From positions 70,978-134,977 of the forward strand of contig JACRPS010000013.1 of NCBI GenBank assembly GCA_016223085.1: a stretch of 64,000 nucleotides of DNA, given 5' to 3'. Each line of letters begins with the position of its first letter. Positions within the stretch are counted from its first letter, which is position 1. The translations under genes were made by a program, and so were the position numbers. The DNA is from Chloroflexota bacterium (GTDB lineage Bacteria > Chloroflexota > Anaerolineae > Aggregatilineales > Phototrophicaceae). The notes below the pieces were generated by a model that was not told the DNA's origin, made no database searches, and worked only from the letters and a program-made list of their open reading frames with translations. Shown piece after piece: positions 6,622 through 14,835 of the stretch.

Positions 6622-9600
6622 TCAGCCGTTGCGCGTACGCCTGCCGCGCAGGAACAGGAACACGATAATCAGCACAATTACGATCAGGATCACGATCAGG
6701 ATGATCGGCAGGAAGTCCGTGCTGGCCGCCGTTGCGCCCGGCACGGTTTCAATCGTCAGCGTGCCAATAGGCGTCATAGTCGGGTTAGGAGTGCGTTCAG
6801 TCTCACCTTCGGTTGCCGTCGGGCTGGCGACCACCTGGGCGATGACCGTTGGCGCAGCGGTGGGTGCCGCCTGCGTCGGCTCCTCAGTGACCTGCGCGGA
6901 CAGGGTAGCCTCGGCATCGAGTGTCGCCTGTGCGTTTGTGGTGGCATCGGCAGCTTGCGTGGCGTCAGCATCAAGGGTTGCCTGAGCATTGGCAGTTGCG
7001 GTCGTCGCCGCGTCACGGGTTTCCCGAGCATCGAGTGTGGCCTGCACGTTAGCGGTTGCAGTCGCTGCCCTCTGTATCGCCTCTGCTTCGTACGTGGCAG
7101 CGTCGTTGGCTGCTGCTGTTGCTGCCGCGCCCCGGGTCGCCTGCGCATTGGTGGTTGCTTCGGCGGCGAGGGCCGCTGCCTGCTCCGTAGCGGTTGCGGC
7201 AGCGCGGTCGGTGGCCCGGGCGGCGGCTGCCAGCGTTCCGGTCGCATTTAAGGTGGCTTGCTCGGCCAGCGCGTTAGCCGTGCCCTGGGCATCCTGGGTC
7301 GCCTGCTGCGCGGCGCTCTGGGTGGCGCTTGCCTGTGCGTCGAGCGTGGCGGTCAGTTCAATGCCCAGTGTCGCCTGCGCATTGGCCGTCGCCTGGGCAT
7401 TGGCGGTGGCGCGGGCGTCGGTGGTGGCCTGGGCGATGCGCGCCCTTGCCGTTGCGGTTGCACCGGTATTGACAGCAGCCTGCGCCTGTGCGGTCGGTGT
7501 TACCTCCGCCGTTGCCGCCTCGCTGGTGGCGTTTGCGTTCTGCGTCGCCTGTGTGTCCGCCGCCAGCGACTCCGCCGTACCGGTGGCCTGCCCCGCGATC
7601 AGCGCCGCCTGCGCTGCGGTGGCGCTGGCATCCGCTGTGATTGTCAGTGTCGCCGTTGGCAGCGGCGTGCGGCTGGGCACGGGGGTATTGGTGGGCCGGG
7701 GGGTGGAGCTGGGCTGCGCCGAGGCAGTCGCTGTCAGCGATGGGGACTCTGACACCATAAAGGCGATGTCGGCGCTGGTGCTCTGGCCGCCAGCGTTGGT
7801 CGCCGTCACCGTCAGGATGTGCCCTCCGGGAGGCAGTGCCAGCACGTCCAGTTCAAACGTGTAGGGCGCGGTCTGTTCGGTCGCCGCTTCGTCGCCGTCC
7901 AGCGCAAATGCCACGCCGGTGATCGGGGTTTGCCCGCCGGCTTCAACGGTGATGGTGCGGTTTTTGTCCAGCGTTTCGCCCGCCTGTAGCCCGCTGATGG
8001 TCATCACCGGCGGCAGCGCCGCGACGGTAAATTCCGCGCTGGCGGTGTCCGACTGGCCGCTTTGCAGGGTGACGGTGGCAGTCAGTTCGTTACGCCCCGG
8101 CGCGAGTTCAGCAGGGTCAATTGTGACCGTTGCCGGCACTTCCGGTACATCGGCAACCACTTCATTATTGATCGTCACCAGCACGCTGCTGACCGGCGTC
8201 TGCCCGGTGGCGTTGATCGTCACGTCCACCGGGTCGCTGATGCCCGCTGCTACGCCTTCCAGACCGCTGAGGCTGATCTGCGGCGGCAGCGCGGCGATGG
8301 TGAACGGCTGCGAAACGGTTGTGGTCACACCGCCTTCGTTTTCCACGTCAACGGTCAGGCTGTGGTCGCCGGGGGGCAGCGCCGCCGGGTCAATCGTAAA
8401 CAGGTACGGCGCTTCCGTGACGGTCGCTTCGCTGTCGTCAATACGGAACGCCGCGCTGGTCGCCGGGGTCTGGCCGGTCACGTCGAGCGTGACGGTCTGT
8501 GGTTCGGCGATGGCGCCAGTTGGCAGGCCGACAATTGTCACCTCTGACGGCAGCGCGGCCACATTAAACGTGCCGCTGGCCTGCCCAACCCCGCCGCCGC
8601 TTTCGTCAGTGGCGAAGAACGACAGGGTATGCTCGCCGGGGCGCAGTTGGAGCGGGTCAAGCGTGATGGTATAGGGCGGCTCGGTAAAGCTGCCCGCCGC
8701 TACACCGTCCAGCCGGAACATCGCGGTGGTGATCGGGTCATCGGCTTTGACGTCGGCTGTGACCGTCACCGGCTCGGTGATCGGCTCGGTCGGCAAATCC
8801 GGCAGCGACACAATCGGCACGATGATCGGCACGCGCACGGTGGTTTCGGCGCTGGCGCTGCCGTCCGGCGTGGTCACTTCCAGTGTCAGGCCGTATTCGC
8901 TGCCGTCGCCGGGCACATCGGCGCTGAGGGTGATGATGTACTGGCTGCGTAGCGTGGCCGCCAGATCACCGTAAATCTTAATCAGTTCGTCAGGAATGGG
9001 TGATTCGTTGAAGCGGGCGTTGGTGCCTCCGGCGATTTCCTGCAGGTAGGTGCGGTCAATGCCGTAACCCAGGCCAATTGTATATACCGGCACGCCCCGG
9101 ATGACGGCTTCATCCAGTGCGGCGCCGCGTTCAACGCGGCTGATGCTGCCGTAATCGGCGCCGTCGCTCAGAACCACCACCGCGCGGCGTGGGGTAGGCG
9201 ACTCCGACGCTTTGGCGACGGCTTCCAGCACGCCCCGGTACAGCGCGGTTTTGCCGCCCGCCTGCAGCGACTCGATGGCCTGGAGCAGCACGTCCTTGTC
9301 GGTGGTGTAATCCTGCACCAGTTCGACGTTGCTGTCGAAGGTGATGATGGCAACCGGGTCGTTCGGGCCAATTGCATTGATAAACAGCGTGGCTGCTTCC
9401 CTGGCGCGTTCAATCGGCAGGCCGGTCATGCTGCTGCTGGTGTCAATTGCCAGCACGACGGCAAACGCCAGTTGGTCGTCGGTGACGTTTTCCACGCTGA
9501 CGATGCGCGCCTGTTCCGCCAGCGGGCCGCTGATGGCAAAGTTATCAGCCGTCAGGCCGAAAATCGGCTGCCCCAGACGGTCGTATACTGCCGCGTTCAC

Positions 9601-9732
9601 AACGATGGTGGGCAGGTCAGCCGGGTTAACGCCGGTGATCTCCACGCGCGCGCCCGGCGCATCCTGCATGGCCCACAGGGCGACCGGCACCAGTAACAAA
9701 ACAAAAAACAGGACGAACAATAACCGTTTCAC
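6622..9732 (-). CDS. VWA-domain surface protein with Ig-like repeats, Ala/Thr-rich stalk and C-terminal membrane anchor
   Basis: 1036 residues from a GTG at 9732 with a G-rich stretch just upstream. Order of parts: signal peptide (1-23); a von Willebrand factor A domain (about 85-275) with an intact metal-ion-dependent adhesion site, D97-x-S99-x-S101, T152 region GGKTALY and D180 in VVLSDGADYG; then four to five beta-sandwich repeats of about 90 residues, each with a closing ...PPGDHSLTV or ...APGRNELTA type strand; then a Pro/Thr linker; then about 260 residues almost only Ala, Thr, Gln, Asn in repeats such as ATANAQATLDA; then one membrane helix (about 1001-1025) ending RGRRTRNG. It should be displayed outside the cell, with adhesion or protein binding through the VWA domain. 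The stalk is low-complexity. Partner unknown. Confidence 0.85.
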   Translation of the reverse strand: MKRLLFVLFFVLLLVPVALWAMQDAPGARVEITGVNPADLPTIVVNAAVYDRLGQPIFGLTADNFAISGPLAEQARIVSVENVTDDQLAFAVVLAIDTSSSMTGLPIERAREAATLFINAIGPNDPVAIITFDSNVELVQDYTTDKDVLLQAIESLQAGGKTALYRGVLEAVAKASESPTPRRAVVVLSDGADYGSISRVERGAALDEAVIRGVPVYTIGLGYGIDRTYLQEIAGGTNARFNESPIPDELIKIYGDLAATLRSQYIITLSADVPGDGSEYGLTLEVTTPDGSASAETTVRVPIIVPIVSLPDLPTEPITEPVTVTADVKADDPITTAMFRLDGVAAGSFTEPPYTITLDPLQLRPGEHTLSFFATDESGGGVGQASGTFNVAALPSEVTIVGLPTGAIAEPQTVTLDVTGQTPATSAAFRIDDSEATVTEAPYLFTIDPAALPPGDHSLTVDVENEGGVTTTVSQPFTIAALPPQISLSGLEGVAAGISDPVDVTINATGQTPVSSVLVTINNEVVADVPEVPATVTIDPAELAPGRNELTATVTLQSGQSDTASAEFTVAALPPVMTISGLQAGETLDKNRTITVEAGGQTPITGVAFALDGDEAATEQTAPYTFELDVLALPPGGHILTVTATNAGGQSTSADIAFMVSESPSLTATASAQPSSTPRPTNTPVPSRTPLPTATLTITADASATAAQAALIAGQATGTAESLAADTQATQNANATSEAATAEVTPTAQAQAAVNTGATATARARIAQATTDARATANAQATANAQATLGIELTATLDAQASATQSAAQQATQDAQGTANALAEQATLNATGTLAAAARATDRAAATATEQAAALAAEATTNAQATRGAAATAAANDAATYEAEAIQRAATATANVQATLDARETRDAATTATANAQATLDADATQAADATTNAQATLDAEATLSAQVTEEPTQAAPTAAPTVIAQVVASPTATEGETERTPNPTMTPIGTLTIETVPGATAASTDFLPIILIVILIVIVLIIVFLFLRGRRTRNG

Positions 9733-9854: not shown

Positions 9855-10391
9855 TTAGCGGCGTGGGCGGGGCGGCAGCCGTCCGATGTTGTAACCCAGG
9901 CTGACGAGGGCTTTCATGGCGGCTTCGGCGACGGTTGAATCCACCGCAAAGCGGCGGCTATGATCGTCGCAGACCGCCAGCAGCGGCTCAATCGCGCGCC
10001 GGTCGCCCAACTGCTGCATGGCGAGGATGGCACTGCGGCGCACGTCCACTTCGGCGGATTGCAGCGCGGCTTCGAGGACGGCAAAATGATCGTGCCCCAG
10101 GCGCGTGAGCGCAAACGCTGCCCAGACCACCAACTGCGGGCTGTTGTGGTTCAGCAGTGGCTTGAGGTACGGCACGGCGCTCACGTCGCCAATCGTGCCG
10201 AGCGCGTTGGCTGCTGCGCCGCGCACGCCGGCGTGTTCGTCCTGGAGCGCATCAATCAGCGGTTCAATCGCGCGCGCGTCACCTGCCTGGCCGAGCAGGT
10301 AAGCAACAAACTGGCGGATTTGTACATCCGGGCTGCGGAGCAGTTGGATCGCGCCCTCAATGTCCGGGGGTGTTTTCGATTGCTGGCTCAT
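9855..10391 (-). CDS. HEAT-repeat protein
   Basis: 178 residues, made of about five HEAT/PBS-lyase-type helical repeats: for example VQIRQFVAYLLGQAGDARAI, AGVRGAAANALGTIGDVSAV and VDVRRSAILAMQQLGDRRAI, each about 31 residues apart. Such small HEAT proteins are scaffolds or, in some families, lyases that attach bilins; no catalytic residue is visible here, and no phycobilin genes are nearby. Its start overlaps the stop of the upstream TrpC-like gene by four bases (ATGA), so the two are translated together and may work as a pair. The C-terminus is basic and Pro-rich (GRLPPRPRR). Cytoplasmic; no signal peptide. Confidence 0.85.
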   Translation of the reverse strand: MSQQSKTPPDIEGAIQLLRSPDVQIRQFVAYLLGQAGDARAIEPLIDALQDEHAGVRGAAANALGTIGDVSAVPYLKPLLNHNSPQLVVWAAFALTRLGHDHFAVLEAALQSAEVDVRRSAILAMQQLGDRRAIEPLLAVCDDHSRRFAVDSTVAEAAMKALVSLGYNIGRLPPRPRR

Positions 10392-11248
10392 GGCTGATCG
10401 GAATTCTGCCGGTTGAGTAAATGGTTAAGGGTCTCGATCTGGTTGTCGGTGTGGATGACCGTCTCCCGCACGATGACCGCGTGCAGTCCCAGTTCGGCGA
10501 CCTGCGCCACCTCATCAAGCGACCGCAGGCCGTCGGTGAACATGACGCGGATATGCGAGGGAATTTGCTCGCGCAGGCGGCGGGCGTTAGCGATGTCAAG
10601 CTGCTGCGTGGCGGCGTCCCGGCTGCGGATGCCGATCACGTAAGGGCTGAGCGACAGGGCGTACTCCAGTTCTTCCTGGCTGGCGACCTGCACAATCGCC
10701 GTCATCCGGTTGCGCTGGGTGGCGGAAACCAGCGTCCGCAGGGTGGGACGGTCAACGACCGACGAATGCAGCACCAGCCCGGACGCGCCCGCCGCCCGCA
10801 TTTCCACCACCTGATATTCATCCAGCACATAATCCTGGCTGATGACCGGCAGGTGAACCGCGCGCGACATCAGTACCAGATCGTCCAGGCCGCGCTGGTA
10901 CAGCGTTTCATCGGTGAACAGGGCAATCGCATCCACCCCGGCCTGGCTGATGCGCAGGGCGGAGGCAACCGGGTCGTAACCGAGATGGAGATCGCCGGTG
11001 AGCGGCAGCGTGTATTTAATCTGGCCGATGAGCATAACCGTACCAGGGTCGGTCACGGTGCTGAGGACCGGGTATGGGCGCTGCTGCATACTCGCCAGGG
11101 CGCGCACAGCTTCAATCGGTGTTTTGGCTTTACGTTCGGCTAATGACCTGCGTTTTGCGGCCAGAATGACATCCAGTTGCGGCACGAGTTCCTTTGTCGT
11201 CATGCAGGTTGTGTGGTCCGCCTCGATTAAAGCAGGACGCCCTTTCAT
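10388..11248 (-). CDS. TrpC-like TIM-barrel protein with altered catalytic residues
   Basis: 286 residues with the overall sequence of indole-3-glycerol-phosphate synthase: QLDVILAAKRRSLAE at the start, AGVDAIALFTDETLYQRGLDD, PVISQDYVLDEYQVVEMRAAGA and GLHAVIV in the right order. The catalytic positions are changed. By my alignment to the family: the substrate-binding E-x-K segment is Q76-I-K78, so Lys is kept but Glu is lost; the catalytic Lys of LRKDF is Q138 (SQDY); the Glu of LVEV is Q187; GINNRD is GIRSRD; the Glu of ESG is T238. Tryptophan synthesis by this protein is therefore unlikely. No other trp gene is near. The HEAT gene follows with a 4-bp overlap. A start at residue 16 is possible. 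Role unknown. Confidence 0.75.
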   Translation of the reverse strand: MKGRPALIEADHTTCMTTKELVPQLDVILAAKRRSLAERKAKTPIEAVRALASMQQRPYPVLSTVTDPGTVMLIGQIKYTLPLTGDLHLGYDPVASALRISQAGVDAIALFTDETLYQRGLDDLVLMSRAVHLPVISQDYVLDEYQVVEMRAAGASGLVLHSSVVDRPTLRTLVSATQRNRMTAIVQVASQEELEYALSLSPYVIGIRSRDAATQQLDIANARRLREQIPSHIRVMFTDGLRSLDEVAQVAELGLHAVIVRETVIHTDNQIETLNHLLNRQNSDQP

Positions 11249-11403: not shown

Positions 11404-11694
11404 ATGGAACTTTCACACGATGCCGTGCGCTGGATTGCCGACCTGGCGCGGCTGGAACTCACCGACGAGGAGATCAGCCTGTACGCCGGGCAGCTCTCCC
11501 ACATCCTGCAACATTTTGAGCGCCTGCAGGAACTGGACACCTCGCACATCGAGCCAACCGCGTCCGTGCTGCCGCTGAAAAACGTCATGCGCCCGGACGT
11601 GGCGCAGCCGCCGCTGCCGCCGGAAGCCGTGATCGCCAACGCCCCGGACGCGCTGGATAACCAGTTCCGCGTCAGCGCCGTTCTAGACGAATAA
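11404..11694 (+). CDS. gatC: Asp-tRNA(Asn)/Glu-tRNA(Gln) amidotransferase subunit C
   Basis: 96 residues, the normal GatC size. It starts MELSHDAVRWIADLARLELT, the family signature, and ends NAPDALDNQFRVSAVLDE where most members have an AP....FxVPxVL tail. GatC links GatA and GatB in the complex that turns Glu-tRNA(Gln) or Asp-tRNA(Asn) into the correct amide; it acts in the cytoplasm. gatA and gatB are not in this window, which is common outside Firmicutes-type operons. GAGGT eight bases before the ATG is the ribosome site. The response regulator starts 13 bp downstream on the same strand and is probably co-transcribed. Confidence 0.95.
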   Translation: MELSHDAVRWIADLARLELTDEEISLYAGQLSHILQHFERLQELDTSHIEPTASVLPLKNVMRPDVAQPPLPPEAVIANAPDALDNQFRVSAVLDE

Positions 11695-11707: not shown

Positions 11708-12526
11708 ATGCCAAGCAAACGTTTACTGGTGATTGAAGATGATTATGATGTCGCTGAGATGCTGGTGATGTATTTTACGTCGCACCAGTACGAGGTCTTC
11801 CACGCCGATGCCGGACTGGTGGGCGTGGAAATGGCGCGGGCGAAAAACCCGCATCTGATTCTTCTGGATGTGATGATGCCAGATATTGACGGCTACGACA
11901 CCTGCCGCCACCTGCGCCAGATGACGCTGACCAAATACATCCCGATCATCTTCCTGACCCAGCGCGACGAACGCGCCAACAAGGTCAAAGGGCTGGAACT
12001 GGGCGCGGACGATTACATCACCAAGCCGTTCGATATGGATGAACTGCGCCTGCGAGTGCAGGGGGCGATCCGCCGCGCCACCCGTGAGAGCCTGCACGAA
12101 GCCCGCAGCGGCCTGCCGACGGGGCCGCTGGTCGAAGAAGAAATCCAGCGGCGACGCTATATGGATCGGCGTTATGCCAGTCTGCAATTTGGCCTTACCG
12201 GCTACAAAACCTACTGCGATGTGTATGGCTTTGTCGCCGGTAATGAAGTCTTCGGCTATGCAGCACAGGCGATTCAGCAGGTGGTCAGCGAGTGTGGCAG
12301 CGCCGATGATTTTATCGGCGTGATGGACGATCACTTTGTTGTCCTGACTGACGCCGACAAAGCCGCCCAGATCGAAGCGATGGTCAGGAGCGCGTTTGAC
12401 GCCGGCGTCAAGGCCTTCTACTCGTTTGCCGATGTTGAACGTGGCGGGCTGCTGGTTAATTCGGCGTCCGGCGGTCAGCAGATCGCGCCGCTAATCGGGC
12501 TGGTGTCGCTCCATGCTTCGGTATAA
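11708..12526 (+). CDS. response regulator with a degenerate GGDEF-like output domain
   Basis: 272 residues. Residues 1-125 are a complete receiver domain: acidic pair D11-D12, phosphorylation site D54 in LILLDVMMPDIDGYD, T84 and K106 in DDYITKPFDM. After a linker, residues about 150-265 follow the pattern of a GGDEF domain (ASLQFGLTGYKTYCDVYGFVAGNEVFGYAAQAI) but the active loop that should read GG[DE]EF is VMDDHF (205-210), so cyclic-di-GMP synthesis is not expected; this reading of the C-terminal part is inference. Such domains often bind nucleotides or proteins instead. It follows gatC by 13 bp. No kinase is adjacent; the hybrid kinase at 30.6-34.1 kb or another kinase could act on it. Confidence 0.85.
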   Translation: MPSKRLLVIEDDYDVAEMLVMYFTSHQYEVFHADAGLVGVEMARAKNPHLILLDVMMPDIDGYDTCRHLRQMTLTKYIPIIFLTQRDERANKVKGLELGADDYITKPFDMDELRLRVQGAIRRATRESLHEARSGLPTGPLVEEEIQRRRYMDRRYASLQFGLTGYKTYCDVYGFVAGNEVFGYAAQAIQQVVSECGSADDFIGVMDDHFVVLTDADKAAQIEAMVRSAFDAGVKAFYSFADVERGGLLVNSASGGQQIAPLIGLVSLHASV

Positions 12527-13175: not shown

Positions 13176-13901
13176 TTAGTGCCCCTCCGCATGAACGTGA
13201 TGGATTTGCAGGTGGTCGGCAGCGCCCAGCGCCAGGCAGACCGGACAGGTGGCTTCGTGCCATGCGCCAATCGCCTCGGCCACGATTTCGGCGTGCGTCG
13301 CGTGGGGAAGCTGCCGCCGCCGGATGACGTACCACACGCCCAGCCCGGCGATAACCAGCGCCACCAGCGCGCCAACGAGCAAAGGCATGGGAATGACCTG
13401 ACTGATAGCCGTTAATGCCGCGCCGATGGCATAACCGAGGAAGAAGTGCAGGCTGAGGAACAGGGCGCTGCCCAGCGCCAGCCCGGCGGCAAACTGGCGT
13501 AGCGGAATGCCTGCCAGCCCGCAGGCGGTCACGGCCACCGACCGCACGCCGGGCGTGAGAATGGCGAGGCCGATGCCGATCGTGCCGCCGCTTTTCAGCC
13601 GCCGGGAAGCGGTTTCCAGCCGTTCGGGGGTCAGCCCCAGGTAACGGCCATAACGAAAGAGAATGCTCCGTCCTGGCCCGCGCACCAGTAAAAACTGGAT
13701 GACGCCGCCTGCAACCAGCGCGACCAGCAGGGCGACAAACGCCTGCGGCAGTACCAGCTTGCCTTCGGCGGCGCGGGCGGAGGTCGCCAGCATCAGCGCA
13801 TCGGCGGGGATTGGCAGCGGCACGCCGGCGGACTTGGTGAGCATAATCACGAAGATGGCGGTTAACCCGTACATGTCGAGAAATGCGTTCAGACCATCCA
13901 T
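13176..13901 (-). CDS. DedA/VTT-family membrane protein with a Cys/His-rich tail
   Basis: 241 residues from the ATG at 13901 (GAGGGACAGGG upstream). The body is a DedA (SNARE-associated/VTT) membrane protein: MDGLNAFLDMYGLTAIFVIM, KSAGVPLPIPADALML in the re-entrant loop, and FRYGRYLGLTPERLETASRR followed by GLAILTPGVRSVAVTACGLAG, where the Arg in the TPGVR segment is the conserved arginine of the family. DedA proteins flip lipids such as undecaprenyl phosphate or phosphatidylethanolamine and depend on the proton motive force. After the last helix (about 195-211) comes a cytoplasmic tail WHEATCPVCLALGAAD followed by IHHVHAEGH, with CxxC and four to five His, that could bind a metal. The tail is not a usual DedA feature. 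Confidence 0.85.
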   Translation of the reverse strand: MDGLNAFLDMYGLTAIFVIMLTKSAGVPLPIPADALMLATSARAAEGKLVLPQAFVALLVALVAGGVIQFLLVRGPGRSILFRYGRYLGLTPERLETASRRLKSGGTIGIGLAILTPGVRSVAVTACGLAGIPLRQFAAGLALGSALFLSLHFFLGYAIGAALTAISQVIPMPLLVGALVALVIAGLGVWYVIRRRQLPHATHAEIVAEAIGAWHEATCPVCLALGAADHLQIHHVHAEGH

Positions 13902-13971
13902 GACCCTGTCCCTCGTTTGCTTACGCCATTCTCTTACGTTGGGCAGCCGCGAATTGGATGTATGGCCGGGT

Positions 13972-13999
13972 TTGCGCGACTTCCGGTTTCTGCTATCGT
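13972..13999 (+). promoter_or_regulatory. possible promoter of the 14023 gene
   Basis: TTGCGC, 16 bp, TATCGT, ending 24 bp before the ATG at 14023, with AGGAG in between. Confidence 0.4.
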
Positions 14000-14022
14000 A
14001 TAAAAAGGTAGGAGCAGAAGCG

Positions 14023-14835
14023 ATGGCAATCCCGCGCAAACCCCGACTGGTCTTTCAATCTACTATCCGACGCAAGCAGTACTTCCGGCGTTTTGCCTGG
14101 TCCACGCTGGCGGCAGTGGCCGCACTGGCAGCGGTGCTGGCGCTCGATTTTGCCGCCAATCGCGGAGTCGCCGACCGCCGCCTGCTGTTGGTCGGGGGTG
14201 TCGCCGGCATCGCGGCGGTGGTATGGTTTGGCGTGCGCGCGGTGGTGAACCTGTGGCGCGGGTTGCGCCGTCGGGATGAAGACCTGCGTTTCTTCGACAA
14301 GGGCTTTGTGTGGACGCGGGGCAAAGAGCAGTACAAATACGGCTGGTCACAGGTAGCGACGTTCCGCGAAGGCGGCAGCGGTATCTACGTAGGGCGACGG
14401 CCAGTGCTCCAGTGGGGAGCGCACACGCTGAGAATGCTGGACGGGCGGGTGTTGAAGATTACCGGCGCGCATGGCAGCCTGCGCCAGTTCGCGGACGCAG
14501 TGCGGCGATACCCGGCGCGGGTGACCGGAACGCGCATGGCGCAGACGCTGCGCCAGGAACAGCCGGTCAAGCTGCACCCGCGCCTGACGCTGTGGCCGGG
14601 CGGTATCGAAGCGGGCCGGCACGAAATCCCCTGGTCGCAGGTGGAAGTGCGGGTGCGGAATGGCCGCCTGGTGATTCTACGGCGCGGCGCATCCGGCAAA
14701 TTCCACGTGATTCGGCGGTATAATATCAGACAGGTGGATAACGTCGGGGGTTTAATGGATTTGGCGCCGTCTACGATTCGCAATCATCAGCGCGAACGGT
14801 TTGAGAAACGACAGACGGCCAGCGAAGGGACGTAA
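14023..14835 (+). CDS. membrane protein of unknown function, possible PH-like cytoplasmic part
   Basis: 270 residues from the ATG at 14023, chosen because AGGAG lies eight bases upstream; the longer open frame overlaps the DedA gene on the other strand. Two membrane helices follow a basic N-terminus (about 25-44 and 52-71), then a soluble part of about 190 residues with repeated beta-type segments: DLRFFDKGFVWTRGKEQYKY with WSQVATFREG, and later LTLWPGGIEAGRHEIPWSQV. The two segments resemble each other (...W-S-Q-V...), suggesting two tandem PH/GRAM-like units, as in DUF6585-type proteins; that is a guess from pattern. The next gene starts 4 bp after this stop, so they form an operon. Confidence 0.7.
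   Translation: MAIPRKPRLVFQSTIRRKQYFRRFAWSTLAAVAALAAVLALDFAANRGVADRRLLLVGGVAGIAAVVWFGVRAVVNLWRGLRRRDEDLRFFDKGFVWTRGKEQYKYGWSQVATFREGGSGIYVGRRPVLQWGAHTLRMLDGRVLKITGAHGSLRQFADAVRRYPARVTGTRMAQTLRQEQPVKLHPRLTLWPGGIEAGRHEIPWSQVEVRVRNGRLVILRRGASGKFHVIRRYNIRQVDNVGGLMDLAPSTIRNHQRERFEKRQTASEGT

Follow-up and report, generated by a model that had tools for sequence, protein, structure and literature searches.

A TrpC-like barrel with a decayed active site in the order Aggregatilineales: a probable pseudoenzyme with a tentative link to a response regulator

A gene resembling trpC lies in a 64,000-nucleotide stretch of a Chloroflexota genome (the window), raising the question of whether its product is still an enzyme and, if not, what has kept the gene. 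The original prediction described a homologue of indole-3-glycerol-phosphate synthase (IGPS) that had lost most of its catalytic residues, was a pseudoenzyme or the bearer of a new chemistry, and formed a stable pair with a HEAT-repeat protein. The name TrpC* is used here for the TrpC-like pseudoenzyme of the window and also for its paralogue clade. The TrpC* open reading frame occupies positions 10388 to 11248 of the minus strand and encodes 286 amino acids. Translation probably starts at Met16 (position 11203) rather than at Met1, because conservation begins at Met16 and stop codons occur just upstream in relatives. A methionine was present at this position in 86% of 28 members of the window's family, and stop codons a few codons 5′ of it were found in several relatives (stop-to-stop frames L043, L044, L049 and L054). 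The probable true extent is, hence, 10388 to 11203 (minus strand), encoding an IGPS-fold TIM barrel of 271 amino acids, as defined by the reading frame, the Pfam match, an AlphaFold2 model and a structural match. The in-frame extension up to the ATG picked originally (11204 to 11248, minus strand) is unconserved and probably not translated; residues 1 to 21 had a pLDDT below 50 in the model. No tRNA was detected in the window.

The claim that the fold signature of IGPS is kept was borne out by both domain and structural comparisons. TrpC* matched the Pfam IGPS domain (PF00218) with 127.7 bits (E, 5.9e-37; cut-off, 27), and the AlphaFold2 model, built with 22 sequences, had a pLDDT of 85.3 and a pTM of 0.83. 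VIA-align 2 ranked Mycobacterium tuberculosis IGPS (4fb7) first for this predicted model, with a Z score of 29.3 and an rmsd of 3.4 over 258 residues at 27% identity. Foldseek placed two chains of a designed Kemp eliminase (9hvh) ahead of the M. tuberculosis IGPS, and 9hvh was also the best sequence match in the PDB (E, 7e-33). Chance resemblance to IGPS was ruled out by the Pfam E value and by the occurrence of the same losses across a clade of 39 members. By domain and predicted fold TrpC* is a member of the IGPS family. It falls outside the curated TrpC equivalogs, as none of the 14 NCBIfam TrpC models listed reached its cut-off (best score, 148.3 versus 260).

PMC7681013 gives K53, K110, E159 and N180 (Sulfolobus solfataricus numbering) as essential for IGPS activity. 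In PMC3391178, the catalytic residues are E51, K53, K110, E159, N180 and S211, and the ligand contacts include E210, G212 and G233. The residues were mapped by a HMMER alignment to M. tuberculosis IGPS and by an alignment of 80 sequences. E51, K53, K110 and E159 corresponded to Q76, K78, Q138 and Q187 of TrpC*, while N180, E210, S211, G212 and G233 corresponded to R208, T238, D239, G240 and R261. Three of the four essential residues were, therefore, replaced (K110 by Q138, E159 by Q187 and N180 by R208), with K53 kept as K78, a retention that counts against the pseudoenzyme reading. All five residues named in the original prediction (Q76, K78, Q138, Q187 and T238) were correct; they align with E51, K53, K110, E159 and E210, and the alignments did not place the catalytic residues elsewhere. 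Two losses extend that list, namely R208 for the essential N180 and D239 for S211. Three of the replaced codons, all on the minus strand, are codon 138 (10835 to 10837), with Gln for the catalytic acid Lys110, a lysine found in 0 of 39 paralogues and in 41 of 41 true TrpCs; codon 187 (10688 to 10690), with Gln for Glu159 by alignment; and codon 238 (10535 to 10537), with Thr for Glu210, a glutamate found in 0 of 39 paralogues. The presence of amides at three catalytic sites was true of the window protein, and Q76 (24 of 28) and Q138 (25 of 28) are features of the whole family, but at residue 187 only 15 of the 28 members have Q, while 11 have E; hence, three amides are no family-wide rule.

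The window's genome contained two matches at the level of IGPS, any third match having an E value of at least 0.5 in each search. The other copy (C1:26483-27238; L083) scored 289.5 Pfam bits, had every catalytic residue and was located near trpF (C1:25810-26442) and trpA (C1:19758-20498), so that an intact trpC does exist elsewhere in this genome. Its presence bears on the idea that TrpC* is a working IGPS whose catalytic residues have been relocated. The high Pfam score and an AES triplet displaced by one column in four members (L049, L050, L052 and L053) are in keeping with relocation, but the intact second copy, the loss of K110 in all 39 paralogues, the subthreshold scores with the 14 NCBIfam models and the occurrence of the paralogue in genomes lacking a trpA match make it highly improbable.

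A search of 61 genomes produced matches in 57 of them and 91 match rows, from which 80 IGPS-like open reading frames were read; the rows left out were one each in G003, G011, G010, G001, G028 and G017, the second of G054 and four in G047. These frames comprised 39 paralogues and 41 true TrpCs, labels that were set first by motif and then tested by tree. A single branch divided the two groups, with support of 100/99 for all kept columns and 97/95 once the catalytic-face columns had been removed. All four of K53, K110, E159 and N180 were present in each of the 41 true TrpCs, and at most two of them in any paralogue; K110 and E210 were each absent from 39 of 39 paralogues, all from the order Aggregatilineales of the Chloroflexota. 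Many members of this order carry a second TrpC copy with a decayed active site. When 154 order genomes were searched with a paralogue profile, 56 had a match of at least 229 bits; 41 of these belong to the window's family (98 genomes) and 15 to other families, a distribution that ruled out a contaminant or one-off copy. The number of genomes rises to 59 with the divergent copies of G025, G060 and G297, which were read or inferred. The score split (paralogues, at least 229.6 bits; true TrpCs, at most 215.9 bits) is imperfect, as motif and tree assign the copies of G025 (176 bits) and G060 (188 bits) to the paralogues despite scores under the split; the G297 copy (193 bits) was counted, with its residues unread, solely as one of two matches and as a neighbour of the regulator described below. 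Extra matches in G047, G269, G335 and G340 were left unclassified.

The named relatives (23 loci) came from MAGs titled Aggregatilineales, Anaerolineae, Anaerolineaceae or Chloroflexi and, in one case, Bacteroidetes. The title of this last record (L136, Bacteroidetes bacterium) is probably wrong. Second copies without K110 were also found outside the order but within the same class (L140, L144, L145, L148 and L158). A tree of 53 rows put these five on the side of the order's paralogues across a 98/98 branch from the true TrpCs, their own grouping being weak (83/75). In a search of 301 genomes of the phylum, with motifs read at the 30 loci returned, loss of K110 was seen only inside the class. 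A locus from another family of the class (L159 in G094) was the only IGPS-like match found there and has a His at the catalytic Lys position.

Active-site decay in the clade is graded, with other families of the order retaining more than the window's family. In the latter, E51 was present in 0 of 28 members, K53 in 8 and glycine 261 in 1, and beta-alpha loop 1 was shortened in 17. Among the 11 paralogues from other families, E51 and K53 were each present in 6, glycine 240 in all 11 and glycine 261 in 8. These last two are phosphate-site glycines, and their retention fits a role as a ligand sensor in which the old site still binds CdRP, IGP or another sugar phosphate and relays a signal. Such a role is rather improbable, however, given that glycine 261 has been lost from 27 of 28 members of the window's family, with an acidic residue in 10 of those, and that the gene is present in genomes without a match to trpA or to a true TrpC.

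Six of the genomes examined (G039, G046, G052, G040, G041 and G043; paralogue loci L066, L067, L062, L057, L063 and L069, respectively; completeness, 89 to 98%) had the paralogue as the sole IGPS-like match found. No trpA match was detected in any of these six genomes, and trpA was present in all six genomes tested that have both copies. A PRAI match was not found in four of the paralogue-only genomes; G039 and G046 had PRAI matches of 78 and 85 bits, and part of the tryptophan pathway may, therefore, linger there. In G331 (68% complete), only the paralogue was found and yet trpA was present. From their gene content, the six paralogue-only genomes are likely to be tryptophan auxotrophs, and TrpC* would not be needed for tryptophan synthesis. 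As the paralogue is the only IGPS-like match in these six genomes, domain-based annotation would credit likely auxotrophs with the IGPS step, a misassignment against which annotation pipelines should be warned.

Loss of catalytic residues and a patchy presence in the order are what a decaying pseudogene would exhibit, and the matches in G011, G004 and G035 contain one stop each, although in each case beyond one or other end of the protein by comparison of the reading frames. The selection results refuted this explanation. Nei-Gojobori estimates of dN/dS were 0.02 to 0.19 in eight of nine paralogue pairs and 0.04 to 0.23 in six of seven pairs of true TrpC, with one saturated pair in each set; several of the pairs share sequences or have a dS above 1. 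Frames were open over the full length in nearly all 39 copies (L075 is cut by a contig end), and residues 43 to 60 were conserved at 72%. The paralogues are under purifying selection, leaving the pseudogene explanation with a negligible probability and it was rejected on dN/dS.

Where this selection acts was determined in 23 family genomes that have both genes, with the faces of the barrel drawn by hand from the secondary structure of the predicted model. Mean pairwise identity on the catalytic (beta-alpha) face was 0.80 for true TrpC versus 0.35 for the paralogue. The corresponding values for the alpha-beta face were 0.64 and 0.48, those for the helices 0.53 and 0.38, and those for the first N-terminal helix 0.48 and 0.38. 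The order was reversed for residues 43 to 60, with 0.33 for true TrpC versus 0.72 for the paralogue. This TPIEAVRALASMQ-RP segment (codons 43 to 60; 11069 to 11122, minus strand) is the most conserved stretch of the paralogue and the lowest of the five regions in true TrpC. None of 20,000 shuffles matched the entropy shift between the two faces. Constraint has been inverted, from the catalytic face to the N-terminal segment. Other markers of the paralogue were Q55 (37 of 39) and R179 (39 of 39). R129, R179 and R226 are paralogue specific in the window's family and are located at the C termini of helices 2, 4 and 6, and hence on the side of the barrel opposite the old active site; they may form one surface.

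The pattern of conservation also bears on the second half of the original prediction, that of a new chemistry. This would involve an enzyme whose pocket was rebuilt around Gln76 and Gln138 for an unspecified, probably unphosphorylated substrate, and changes of chemistry are frequent among TIM barrels. The family-wide conservation of Q76 and Q138 means that these residues could form a working pocket; T112, D113 and D143 are common to true TrpC, and Y117 is a paralogue-specific residue of the catalytic face. Against these points, conservation in the paralogue is lowest on the catalytic face (35% pairwise identity), and a column comparison found no paralogue-specific conserved residue there besides Q76, Q138 and Y117; the shortening of beta-alpha loop 1 in 17 of 28 members is also unfavourable. 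New chemistry is, therefore, not favoured and we consider it unlikely, if less so than the ligand sensor. The pseudoenzyme half of the claim was supported by the intact TrpC elsewhere in the genome and by losses throughout the paralogue clade. TrpC* is an enzyme homologue without the residues that its catalysis requires, retained by selection as judged from dN/dS and the inversion of constraint; sequence, clade and selection all lend the pseudoenzyme reading good support. With the active site decayed and a formerly variable part nearly fixed, the barrel has probably ceased to be an enzyme and taken on a binding or regulatory role, and TrpC* is probably a binding or signalling component.

A candidate partner for such a component was the HEAT/PBS-lyase-repeat protein of 178 amino acids encoded immediately downstream (9855 to 10391, minus strand). 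The overlap between the two genes is real, with the ATG of the HEAT gene overlapping the TGA of TrpC* by 4 nucleotides (10388 to 10391). The stable pair that had been proposed on this basis did not hold up across genomes. Of 28 family loci, 13 have a HEAT gene next to TrpC*, some of the contigs ending early. Nine family genomes that have TrpC* with no adjacent HEAT gene (G013, G008, G014, G036, G026, G002, G018, G019 and G030) were searched for an orthologue, and the best matches were at most 72 bits versus 378 bits for the self match, a level suggestive of generic HEAT repeats and not of an orthologue. The HEAT protein is a lineage-specific neighbour and was rejected as a constant partner. 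After it comes a gene for a VWA/Ig-domain protein with a C-terminal hydrophobic stretch (6622 to 9732, minus strand), which adjoins TrpC* in 15 of 28 family loci. The VWA/Ig-domain protein has 1036 amino acids, with long Ala/Thr/Gln-rich repeats preceding the hydrophobic stretch.

On the other side of TrpC*, gatC (amidotransferase subunit C by Pfam; 11404 to 11694, plus strand) is followed directly by a response regulator gene (11708 to 12526, plus strand), identified by Pfam and motif tables and encoding a REC domain with a phospho-acceptor Asp and a degenerate GGDEF domain. The GGDEF match of the window regulator in Pfam was weak; its signature reads MDDHF, and LGDEF was found in G004, G009 and G015. 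Of 22 aligned rows, in which the window copy is entered twice, 21 have the phospho-acceptor Asp, the exception being G052. The degenerate GGDEF domain makes it likely that the regulator is itself a pseudoenzyme. At 24 of the 39 paralogue loci the divergent neighbour is gatC (23 of the family's 28 loci and that of G052, which belongs to another family), with the regulator next in 21.

Co-occurrence in the 98 family genomes was tallied by hand from the paralogue and regulator searches. Both genes were found in 34 genomes, TrpC* only in 9 (9 of the 43 with the paralogue), the regulator only in 2 and neither in 53, a concordance of 87 of 98. Regulator orthologues were those of at least 98.8 bits, a cut from other REC-GGDEF proteins that was set after the scores had been seen. 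Three lower-scoring ones were added, G030 on its position and G029 and G295 on the length of the ORF; without these three, the counts become 31, 12, 2 and 53. As one genus contributes 34 of the 98 genomes, with just one member having either gene, co-occurrence at the genome level overstates independence. A tally by genus majority gave 13 with both, 3 with TrpC* only, 0 with the regulator only and 8 with neither (Fisher P, 2e-4). The association is confounded by gene neighbourhood and shared ancestry. A search for gatC itself found it in all of 20 genomes, of which 14 lack TrpC* (12 from the family and 2 from other families). In ten genomes, neither TrpC* nor the regulator was seen beside gatC: a VWA gene adjoins gatC at the expected place of TrpC* in G034, G292, G028 and G020; the next gene after gatC in G031, G281 and G027 is related to the window gene at 13663 to 14835, which lies beyond the regulator; and gatC has no known neighbour adjoining it in G298, G300 and G316. 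In G022, G023 and G039, gatC and the regulator are together and TrpC* is on another contig, so that in G022 and G023 the two genes are unlinked yet both kept. No common partner was found in the ten genes around the copies in other families of the order (G039, G043, G057 and G040). Neighbourhood and co-occurrence point to the regulator as the best candidate for a functional partner of TrpC*, and a better one than the HEAT protein.

We consider it fairly probable, on balance, that TrpC* is a neofunctionalized TIM-barrel pseudoenzyme that acts as a noncatalytic binding protein, tentatively working with the regulator. The interface would be formed by the N-terminal segment of residues 43 to 60, with the invariant R179 and the paralogue-specific arginines at the helix ends. 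More tentatively, TrpC* may work with the REC/degenerate-GGDEF regulator encoded beyond gatC, the two former enzymes making one signalling or adaptor module, to which the HEAT protein might be an accessory in some lineages. A broader proposal, that this is an ancient module spread across the order, in which an IGPS barrel became an adaptor through its N-terminal segment and a degenerate-GGDEF regulator was its partner, is possible but doubtful.

Work on folding, fitness landscapes and enzyme design uses IGPS as a model TIM barrel. The clade spans a gradation, with E51, K53 and the phosphate-site glycines still present at one extreme and almost no active site left at the other, and its members often share genomes with the true enzyme. 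The change from enzyme to binding protein, and which constraint is the first to go, therefore become testable. No natural noncatalytic descendant of IGPS was found in searches of open-licence papers. The closest known system is TrpC itself (4fb7 and 3t44 of M. tuberculosis and 1igs of S. solfataricus), with which TrpC* shares the whole (beta-alpha)8 barrel and the N-terminal helical extension. TrpC* differs in having K110, E159, N180, E51, E210 and S211 replaced, in the unconserved catalytic face, in a location away from the trp genes and in a new conserved N-terminal signature. The designed Kemp eliminase 9hvh is likewise an IGPS-like fold minus the native catalytic set; it is man-made, however, and the parallel lies in the missing residues, not in function. 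Plant PDX1.2 and similar TIM-barrel pseudoenzymes are duplicated biosynthetic enzymes that have lost catalysis and act through protein binding. PDX1.2 belongs to another family and binds its active paralogues, while TrpC* occurs also where no true TrpC was found; what the two have in common is their origin as duplicates of a TIM-barrel enzyme from which catalysis has been lost.
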